NCBI RefSeq assembly: GCF_023347275.1
Contig: NZ_CP094468.1
Location: forward strand, 992,001-1,056,000
Reading direction: 5' to 3'
DNA: 64,000 bases
Source of the DNA: Faecalibacterium sp. I3-3-89
Lineage (GTDB): Bacteria > Bacillota > Clostridia > Oscillospirales > Ruminococcaceae
Shown: positions 33,087-62,519 of the stretch, piece by piece
Numbering within the stretch: position 1 is the first letter of the stretch
Layout of the letters: each line of letters begins with the position of its first letter
Position numbers and translations under genes: made by a program
The notes under the pieces: model-generated
What the model was told of the DNA's origin: nothing
Databases searched by the model: none
What the model saw: the letters and a program-made list of their open reading frames with translations, nothing else

Positions 33087-33114
33087 TGACAACTCCGCAC
33101 GTTTGCGGTAAAAT
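33086..33114 (+). promoter_or_regulatory. Promoter of rplJ-rplL
   Basis: TTGACA (33086-33091) and TAAAAT (33109-33114), 17 bp apart. Confidence 0.88.
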
Positions 33115-33120
33115 AATCAT

Positions 33121-33238
33121 GCTGTTTTTGAGACAGCAGGTGCTGGAGTCCAGCGTAAGGCTATGCCGCCTGCCGAGAAACGTGCGTAAAGTTGCTTTAT
33201 GCCTCTTTCTCGGCCAAGTGCGGGAAAGAGGCTTTTTT
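33121..33238 (+). promoter_or_regulatory. L10 leader of rplJ-rplL with terminator
   Basis: About 120 nt leader with an early GCTGT...ACAGC hairpin, the typical AAACGTGCGTAAA stretch (about 33178-33190) and a final hairpin GCCTCTTTC (33201-33209) / GAAAGAGGC (33224-33232) followed by T6. This is the layout of Firmicute L10 leaders, in which L10(L12)4 binding controls the operon. Confidence 0.8.
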
Positions 33239-33287
33239 CGTTGCTCACCAGCTTTCGATATAAGTTTTTGAAACGAGGTGAAACCGA

Positions 33288-34377: not shown

Positions 34378-34494
34378 GTTAGCTGACCCTTCTGCTGACG
34401 GATCTTGTGGAGCACCACAGTGCGGAAGGGAAGAAAAGCTTTTTGCCGACCGTCTGGGCAGCCTTGCGTAATGGTGCGCAAAGCTGCCTTTTTT
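34378..34494 (+). promoter_or_regulatory. ZTP riboswitch (pfl RNA) with terminator, controlling fhs
   Basis: Aptamer 34378-34460: a first stem around CCCTTC...GAAGGG with an inner TGTGG-AGCA-CCACA hairpin, and the hallmark 3' part GCCGACCGTCTGGGCA (34445-34460). The terminator stem GGCAGCcTTGCG / CGCAAaGCTGCC (34457-34488) plus T6 reuses the GGGCA of the aptamer, so ligand binding and termination exclude each other. ZTP (ZMP) riboswitches sense a shortage of 10-formyl-tetrahydrofolate and turn on purine and one-carbon genes such as fhs. Confidence 0.88.
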
Positions 34495-36329: not shown

Positions 36330-36358
36330 TTTACAAAAGTGTAACAAACTGTTATACT
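36330..36358 (+). promoter_or_regulatory. Promoter of the C39-like exported protein gene
   Basis: TTTACA (36330-36335) and TATACT (36353-36358), 17 bp apart. The 312 bp intergenic region is AT-rich; apart from this promoter it holds the fhs terminator and the covarying hairpin element at 36371-36472. Confidence 0.8.
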
Positions 36359-36370
36359 TTACAGCAGTGA

Positions 36371-36472
36371 ATATAGCAGTTTGCGTTTTTAATGCACAAG
36401 CAACATCCGCAAACTGCATATCGCAAATATGCTATTTTGATAGGCACTATTTTTGAAAATTGCGATAATAGC
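36371..36472 (+). repeat. Covarying hairpin element, copy 1
   Basis: Stem GCAGTTTGCG (36376-36385) / CGCAAACTGC (36408-36417) around TTTTTAATGCACAAGCAACA. Then ATATCGCAAATATGCT, with its own GCATAT/ATATGC hairpin, and a distal TTGCGATA (36460-36467) complementary to TATCGCAA (36419-36426). Copy 2 at 58597-58697 keeps the loop and the downstream blocks, but its stem is GCAAACCAAC/GTTGGTTTGC. It lies just downstream of a promoter. Confidence 0.8.
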
Positions 36473-36490: not shown

Positions 36491-37537
36491 ATGGAATGTG
36501 CGCCGCACCGGATGTGGAAGAAACTGATGGCCCTTGTGCTGTCGCTCGTGATGATGGCTGTGATGCTGCCGGGAGCGCTGGCCGTAGACCTCAATGTGGA
36601 CGCAGGCTTCTACTTCAAACAGAGCCGGGGCGGAACCTGTACGCTGGCTTCTGCCGCCATGATGCTTCGCCGCCGCGCTTTTCTGGACGGCCTGACCGAC
36701 TGGACGGATGTGACCGAGAACAGCGTCCGGGGCAGTGCATGGTCCGGGGGACTGGCCCACAGTTTCAACTATAATGCCATGCAGGTGGGCTACGCCACCC
36801 TGCCCTCCGGCACGGAAGCCAAGAAGCAGACGCTTATCCAGCTGCTGGCCGAGCACCCCGAGGGCATCGTCCTCTATGACCGCAGCCGTCCCCACGCTGT
36901 TCTCCTGACGGATTACACCGACGGCGTCTTCTATTGCTCCGACCCGGCCGGGAGCGTTTCGCTGGGCCGCGTGCCCATCTCGGCGGCAAGCATCTCCATC
37001 GCGGGGGCGTCCTGCTACTGGTACATCACCTCGGATCAGAATAGTGTCACGGCCTCGCCGGACAGCCTCCGTCTGGAAGGGATGCACTATCCGGTCAACA
37101 TCCGCACCGGAAAGGGCATGAGCGTGAGCGGCATCGCCGCCAGCGCCTCGAACGCCGTACTGACGGAGGTCGAGGTGGTCATCCTTGACGCCAACGACCA
37201 GACCGTCCAGAGCGCCGAAGCGGCCCCCAACGTGTCCAGTTGGTCGCTGAAGAACCTCGACAGTCAGATCCGCTTCGGTGAGCTGCCGGAGGGCAGCTAC
37301 ACCTACATGGTCGTCCTGATTGACTCCAATGGGCAGACCCTCTGCTTCATGAGCGATTTCACGGTGTCCGGCAGCGCCAACAGCACCGCTGTCTACTGGT
37401 CGGTGCAGGATCCCTCCGGCTCGAAGGTGAGCCAGATCGTTCAGGAGGTCGAAGCGGCAGCTGTCGAGGCAGTGGAGTCTGGCTCTGAGGCCGTAGGCGA
37501 GACGAAAAAGAACATCTGGAGCTGGCTTCTGGGCTGA
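36491..37537 (+). CDS. Exported protein with C39-like cysteine-peptidase fold
   Basis: 348 residues. Signal peptide at 1-31 (KKLMALVLSLVMMAVMLPGALA, split before VDLN). The next ~150 residues resemble C39-type papain-fold domains: GGTCTLASAAMMLRRR supplies a candidate Cys, RPHAVLLTDYTDGVFYCSDPAG a candidate His and Asp. The C-terminal ~130 residues look like a beta-sandwich (MHYPVNIRTGKGMSVSGIA ... GSYTYMVVLIDSNGQ). A short Ala/Glu helix and WSWLLG end it. Substrate unknown; a wall-associated protease or amidase is possible. Ribosome binding site AAGGGATG. It converges with the SpoIID-like gene. Confidence 0.65.
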   Translation: MECAPHRMWKKLMALVLSLVMMAVMLPGALAVDLNVDAGFYFKQSRGGTCTLASAAMMLRRRAFLDGLTDWTDVTENSVRGSAWSGGLAHSFNYNAMQVGYATLPSGTEAKKQTLIQLLAEHPEGIVLYDRSRPHAVLLTDYTDGVFYCSDPAGSVSLGRVPISAASISIAGASCYWYITSDQNSVTASPDSLRLEGMHYPVNIRTGKGMSVSGIAASASNAVLTEVEVVILDANDQTVQSAEAAPNVSSWSLKNLDSQIRFGELPEGSYTYMVVLIDSNGQTLCFMSDFTVSGSANSTAVYWSVQDPSGSKVSQIVQEVEAAAVEAVESGSEAVGETKKNIWSWLLG

Positions 37538-58596: not shown

Positions 58597-58697
58597 TATA
58601 GCAAACCAACTTTTTAATGCAACAGCAACAATGTTGGTTTGCATATCGCAGATATGCTGCTTCAGTTGTGCTAATTTCTAGTCTTGCGATACAATAG
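58597..58697 (+). repeat. Covarying hairpin element, copy 2
   Basis: Stem GCAAACCAAC (58601-58610) / GTTGGTTTGC (58633-58642) around TTTTTAATGCAACAGCAACA. Then ATATCGCAGATATGCT, and TTGCGATA (58684-58691) pairing with TATCGCA (58644-58650). It aligns on the + strand with copy 1 (36371-36472), although the gene it precedes is on the - strand. Confidence 0.8.
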
Positions 58698-62258: not shown

Positions 62259-62279
62259 TCCTCTCGTCTGAATAGAAAA

Positions 62280-62475
62280 CAGCAGGTGCCTGCCGCCAAG
62301 GGCTTGTCCTTTGGCCGGGAGGGTAAAAGGGAAGCGGGTGAGAGTCCCGCGCGATCTCGTCACTGTGATAAGGGAGTCCGCTGCTTTGGCGCATGTCGCC
62401 GGTCACTGGGAGCTTTGCTTCTGGGAAGGCGGCAGCGGATGATGAGCTTTCAGTCAGGAAACCTGCCCGCTGTTG
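62280..62475 (+). promoter_or_regulatory. Cobalamin (B12) riboswitch
   Basis: Starts CAGCAGGTGCC, then GGGTAAAAGGGAAGCGGGTG, GAGTCCCGC, the core CTCGTCACTGTGATAAGGGAG, the second CACTGGGAGC...CTGGGAAGGC, and the closing GTCAGGAAACCTGCCCG. These are the standard conserved boxes of the class, in order. It precedes a cbiK-type gene. High cobalamin should shut the gene off. Confidence 0.92.
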
Positions 62476-62519
62476 GTACAGGAGCGCCAAGCTCCGGATC
62501 ACGAGGAATTGGTCGTACC

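Follow-up and report, generated by a model that had tools for sequence, protein, structure and literature searches.

A dispersed ~95-bp repeat of Faecalibacterium with two hairpins and, in one subfamily, an IS630-like right end is probably a new MITE family

The window, that is, the whole stretch of 64,000 nucleotides of Faecalibacterium sp. I3-3-89 that was analysed, carries two copies of a ~95-bp element, both on the + strand, at 36372-36467 (96 bp) and 58597-58691 (95 bp), in a host genome that consists of a single contig of 2.816 Mb. Copy 1 is flanked by the gene for formate--tetrahydrofolate ligase (PF01268) and by an ORF at 36491 with no Pfam match, while copy 2 is located upstream of a minus-strand ORF, likewise with no Pfam match, and has a PF01042 gene on its other side. 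A promoter-like site precedes each copy, at 36330-36358 (+) for copy 1 and at 58735-58707 (-) for copy 2, and in both cases the element lies between the site and the start codon; these sites, which are consensus matches only, number 2 per stretch versus 0.3 and 0.7 in shuffled sequences. One 9-of-12 promoter-like match overlaps the right end of copy 1, and a search for a terminator inside the element found none. The sequence-only reading had described two similar copies of about 100 bp that share loop and end blocks, and this description holds, with the element proper slightly shorter than the ranges first given and with the loop and ends conserved. The parts of the two copies, named by the subfamilies introduced below, are the following (sites and sequence stretches carry labels beginning with L).

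36372..36467, + strand: copy 1, complete element of subfamily A; the corresponding site in a relative, L111, is element-free
36376..36385, + strand: copy 1, 5' arm of hairpin 1, GCAGTTTGCG
36386..36407, + strand: copy 1, conserved loop, TTTTTAATGCACAAGCAACATC
36408..36417, + strand: copy 1, 3' arm of hairpin 1, CGCAAACTGC
36419..36425, + strand: copy 1, 5' arm of hairpin 2, TATCGCA
36443..36467, + strand: copy 1, right end of 25 bp, similar to IS630-family terminal inverted repeats
58597..58691, + strand: copy 2, complete element of subfamily C; the corresponding site in a relative, L118, is element-free
58601..58610, + strand: copy 2, 5' arm of hairpin 1, GCAAACCAAC
58633..58642, + strand: copy 2, 3' arm of hairpin 1, GTTGGTTTGC
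58644..58650, + strand: copy 2, 5' arm of hairpin 2, TATCGCA
58685..58691, + strand: copy 2, right end TGCGATA, which is the 3' arm of hairpin 2

The element is thus composed of two palindromic modules joined at a TA. In both copies, hairpin 1 has a 10-bp stem and a 22-base loop with a 3-bp inner stem, and its arms, which had been claimed to differ completely between the copies and yet to pair perfectly, do so (GCAGTTTGCG with CGCAAACTGC in copy 1, GCAAACCAAC with GTTGGTTTGC in copy 2). Hairpin 2 is closed in both copies by the long-range pairing TATCGCA/TGCGATA that had also been proposed, its closing arm being the final 7 bases of the right end in copy 1. The first TA of copy 1 is either shared with the target or duplicated from it, and the TA within the conserved loop is the site that takes nested insertions in other copies. 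The folding energies are only moderately low (z of -2.43 and -1.38 for copies 1 and 2 on the + strand, and of -3.14 and -2.73 on the - strand) and are weaker evidence for structure than the repetition and covariation of the element.

The element is repeated well beyond the window. The loop pattern occurs 28 times in the host genome versus 0 for a reversed control pattern, a recurrence beyond chance, and a covariance model built from 27 copies, without the truncated copy L035, gives 37 matches there (E up to 0.001), some of them decayed or nested. The covariance-model search of related genomes that had been suggested as a check detected additional copies whose stems pair: 14 of the 31 Faecalibacterium genomes, all of them among the 22 good genomes, have 2-37 matches each, and the host genome holds the most. 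At the family level, under stricter filters, 3 of 247 genomes gave matches, two of them Faecalibacterium and the third another genus with a truncated copy. The genome-contig stretches, 62 in number, comprise 47 from Faecalibacterium and one, with a copy of the element, from an uncultured Clostridia MAG (L169); a further 14 were set aside as another conserved, probably coding, sequence that does not contain the element. Viral contigs were likewise discarded as a source: the 21-base loop pattern is present in 11 stretches (12 matches) with no stem recognisable by eye, and a hairpin-1 pattern gave 0 matches in them.

The full copies measure 95-97 bp (n=27) and are short, non-coding and dispersed, as is expected of a MITE. 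They are divided into subfamilies, named here A (CAGTTTGCG), B (CAATTCAAC) and C (CAAACCAAC), which have the loop core and the ends in common; more divergent copies have other stems and a loop such as TTTTGATTCGTTGGCAACA, and often end in TTGCGATT. A rough codon-usage gene caller places 70 of 71 scored copies in intergenic DNA. For the 58 copies with both neighbours called, orientation relative to the neighbouring genes is random (same/opposite 16, same/same 15, opposite/opposite 15, opposite/same 12); these orientation and intergenic counts leave out L035, L174, L178, L184, L186 and the coding hits, and the pattern missed L029. As copies are found close to where genes start and end, they may cause differences in expression among strains.

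Insertion is precise at many of the sites that could be compared. The joined flanks of 14 host-genome copies were used as queries against relatives, and element-free counterparts were found for nine of them (L012, L019, L021, L023, L024, L025, L029, L030, L031): six join with no change of length and three are off by 1-4 bases. Specifically, for the two window copies (L023 and L024) and for L030 the flanks of the empty site match closely and join with unchanged length, with three substitutions next to the junction at copy 1 and two at copy 2. At L019 and L021 both flanks align with no net length change, although the right flanks have diverged and failed the seed test, and the empty site of L025 joins exactly, though only ~12 bases of its right flank align. 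The imprecise sites are off by 4 (L012), 2 (L029) and 1 (L031) bases. A second query with eight copies gave counterparts for L175 and L191, imprecise ones for L160 and L020, and no usable empty site for L014, L164 and L171. Inspection by eye also shows nesting, with one copy inserted in the loop TA of another copy or remnant at L016, L022 and L033, and in L081 the loop TA is occupied by a truncated IS630 element.

TA is found at both sides of 55 of 73 copies by script and of four more by eye, which fits a duplicated TA; as printed, this count includes mis-anchored left ends (L015, L144, L173, L190) and right ends (L166, L178), and it skipped 18 stretches (14 coding hits, one strand of L016, L181, L184 and L186). 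Around the dinucleotide, a pyrimidine stands on one side in 55 of the 73 copies and a purine on the other in 68, and the right flank has A at +1, +2 and +3 in 58, 52 and 49 copies, respectively. Two sites depart from TA. At L019 and L175 the left flank is CA, the element-free relatives (one for L019; three for L175, two of which have small indels further to the right) have CA as well, and the element still closes with GATA on the right, so that nothing was duplicated. A third case, read by eye against the frame of L087, is a divergent copy that lies within a gene resembling a recombinase (L104, L106, L108) and appears to have been inserted at CA, again with no duplication. The genes beside L104 and L087, which we take to be serine recombinases, were considered as movers of the element and dropped, as the element interrupts the gene at L104.

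IS200/IS605-like Y1 enzymes recognise single-stranded hairpins and have PATE-like derivatives. The CA sites raise the possibility, which we consider unlikely, that the element is moved by such a hairpin reader, or by an enzyme using a 2-bp TA core, with no target duplication. The two CA sites with no duplication agree with this, as do the asymmetric target with AAA in the right flank, the two hairpins placed one at each end, the folded shape kept while the arm sequence changes, and the single Y1_Tnp gene of the host genome (L040). Against it stand the right end of subfamily A, whose similarity to IS630 ends extends over 25 bp, and a target core that, with Y in 55 and R in 68 of 73, has approximate symmetry, as for TA-specific enzymes. 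Moreover, the right-end motifs TTGCGATA and TATCGCAA are absent around L040 on both strands, and the left-end motif of 7 bases is present there a single time, on the minus strand, ~0.5 kb beyond the Y1 gene; this comparison covered L040 alone and motifs of 7-8 bases. A related proposal, to which we give little credence, is that the mobilising enzyme recognises a hairpin by its shape and its conserved loop, whether as single-stranded DNA or as an extruded cruciform, and that joining at a YA core then leaves the target unduplicated. Were it true, hairpin 1 would be a transposon end recognised by shape, its stem free to change and its loop fixed, and the other end of the mobile unit would be borrowed from IS630.

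The similarity to IS630 concerns the ends of the element. PF13358 (DDE_3) has matches in 7 of the 31 genomes, and the element is present in five of these seven and also in 9 of the 24 that have no such match; the host genome has no DDE_3 match, although it is the richest in copies. Among the seven DDE_3 loci, both ends of a ~1 kb element are found at L128, L129 and L130 and one end at L132 and L134, while at L131 and L133 the patterns tried detected IS ends on neither side. All the IS ends found start with TATAGC, and most continue with (A/G)(A/G)TTTTCA, L128 being different. Of the two ORFs of L130, the one with DDE_3 passes the cut-off of NF033545 (IS630 family transposase), and the one with an HTH matches the same model below the cut-off.

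Over the 25 terminal bases, the right end of subfamily A shares 20-21 with five IS630 ends, belonging to four elements of other Faecalibacterium genomes, 19 with the left end of L130 (L130L) and 15 with that of L128 (L128L); the L128R end was not used. Of 245 control sites anchored at TAT(A/C)GCA, 237 score 15 or less against the same subfamily A end and eight score 16-19, and the four controls that reach 18 or more with any IS end comprise three indel variants of the element and one unrelated site. The left ends score 16-18 of 25 (for subfamily A, 16-17 with the five IS ends and 18 with L130L), no higher than the top controls (17-18). For the right ends of B and C the best scores are 18 and 17, both with L128L, again no higher than the best controls. 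By these alignments, the match to IS630 ends applies to the right end of subfamily A only, and, as the B and C ends do not beat the controls, the IS630 link of copy 2 rests on its kinship with subfamily A. The element's own two ends, TATAGCA and TATCGCA, are alike at 6 of 7 bases and have little in common beyond TAT(A/C)GCA.

The stems covary, as had been claimed from the two window copies. In the 25 distinct sequences among the 27 copies, all 500 structure cells pair. In a 64-copy alignment (62 distinct), which is biased towards the model structure by having been fitted to it, although the arms can be read plainly, 93.9% of the cells pair versus 83.9% in shuffles; pairing in stem 1 of the 62 distinct copies reaches 96.5%, 8 of the 10 base pairs of this stem show double changes, and the covariation score is 0.314 versus a shuffled-column mean of 0.136 and at most 0.093 for slid pairings. 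The joint change of the arms is clear, and the compensatory changes separate subfamilies of a mobile repeat.

A structured RNA, either a cis-regulatory leader or a small RNA, whose fold is under selection and which has spread as a repeat, would account for the conservation of the loop and for stem 1 covarying so strongly, and it might be transcribed, given the promoter-like sites beside both window copies. We nevertheless hold it to be very improbable. The two window copies would be transcribed in opposite senses, the orientation of the 58 copies relative to their neighbours is random, and position is not conserved at the sites tested: only the L147 site is common to, and filled in, two genomes, and both window sites are element-free in a relative, contrary to what a conserved RNA locus would have shown. 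The element has no Rfam match at the gathering score, in keeping with the earlier remark that it belongs to no recognised RNA class, and the three Rfam matches in the window are all elsewhere and are ordinary features (an L10 leader at 33109-33247, a ZMP/ZTP riboswitch at 34381-34466 and a Cobalamin riboswitch at 62267-62484). Furthermore, among departures from pairing, G-U and A-C cells number 17 and 11 in stem 1 (p 0.34, two-sided) and 3 and 11 in stem 2 (p 0.06), the latter leaning the opposite way; the cells are not independent, since related copies are counted more than once. With no excess of G-U over A-C, the mismatches do not point to selection on an RNA fold of the + strand. With the empty sites and the random orientation, this leaves the earlier claim that selection acts on the folded shape unsupported as far as an RNA is concerned, and it indicates that stem covariation between two dispersed copies is insufficient to call an RNA.

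Co-evolution of the two DNA arms, or correction of one arm from the other by template switching in a palindrome, could yield the same covariation. Template switching in a DNA palindrome can copy a change from one arm into the other. It is conceivable, if rather unlikely, that the covariation is wholly mutational in this way, in which case selection on shape would be needless; such an origin is compatible with a MITE. Single-copy mismatches are of both kinds, as in decay, and most differences are fixed between subfamilies, both of which suit this explanation, but template switching alone does not explain the conserved loop.

The reading that we favour, to which we assign a probability of about three in four, is that the element represents a new MITE family of Faecalibacterium, ~95 bp long, with no gene of its own, of IS630 type and similar to RUP. 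From the end similarity we infer mobilisation by an IS630 transposase, which would be supplied in trans and would recognise the ends 5' TATAGCA... and 3' ...TTGCGATA. Insertion would take place in intergenic DNA at YTAR-like sites, often followed by AAA, and hairpin 1 would retain its loop as both arms change together between subfamilies, perhaps through one of the processes named above. Insertion of the IS630 type should duplicate TA, and the CA sites L019 and L175 therefore count against it, as do the host genome's lack of any DDE_3 match and the scores of the left ends and of the B and C right ends. MITEs usually keep their ends and vary inside; here, contrary to that pattern, it is the loop that is conserved. 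For IS630-type transposition this is an oddity, and so is the absence of a duplication where the target is CA. Faecalibacterium is a major human gut commensal, and the element would be a small mobile repeat in it, with subfamilies, a target and a candidate driver.

The RUP of pneumococcus is described in PMC2229807 as a 107-bp intergenic repeat of 108 copies with ends like those of an IS630-family element and insertion at TA, and the element most likely works in the same manner, as a small passenger of an IS630-type transposase acting in trans. The likeness is one of description, in another organism, and the Faecalibacterium element differs in that its ends diverge beyond 7 bases, the loop of hairpin 1 is conserved while stem 1 covaries, and TA is not duplicated at two CA sites. 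Nesting among S. pneumoniae repeats has also been reported (PMC10969869). By the account in PMC2229807, the Correia/NEMIS repeats of Neisseria are comparable in size range (~107-155 bp), in having TA at the ends and in the stem-loops that their transcripts form; 24-bp terminal repeats are listed for them, and repeats of this sort form one stem-loop from paired ends, whereas the Faecalibacterium element has two separate hairpins. The CIR of Caulobacter and Brucella (PMC2229807) resembles the element in that its two stem-loop arms are independent of each other and one loop holds a conserved motif; this motif, however, is GANTC, and the section seen describes no IS630 link. With the IS630 family itself, the element shares the 20-21 of 25 bases between the subfamily A right end and five IS ends, and TA-bounded ends; it differs in having no transposase and in an internal hairpin absent from the IS ends examined. 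Within the open-licence full texts, titles and abstract openings consulted, including PMC7283042, no such Faecalibacterium repeat is mentioned, which is weak evidence of novelty.

Several individual copies are unusual. L089, L094 and L105 end after hairpin 1, adjoin other sequence and break at or within a few bases of the inter-module TA; they were initially taken as a smaller mobile unit, and look like truncated copies. The joined reading frame of L094 is uninformative, two relatives differing directly after the join, and the truncated copies L035 and L083 break elsewhere. By eye, the copy in L103 (2001-2068) has an internal deletion from the loop TA to the inter-module TA. In a Faecalibacterium longum contig (L164, ~1584-1680), a chimaera-like copy joins a subfamily B hairpin 1 to a subfamily A right half, and subfamilies may therefore recombine. 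The decayed copy of L166 (7067-7163) has CCAGACAT on both sides, the left one sharing its T with the element. Lastly, in L090, L095, L097, L099 and L107 (~1960-2140) a divergent copy is embedded in a common core of at least ~140 bp with partly different surroundings; this core has a perfect hairpin (GGGTGCGTCC.../GGACGCACCC in L099) and may represent a composite repeat of larger size or a terminator that travels with the copy.
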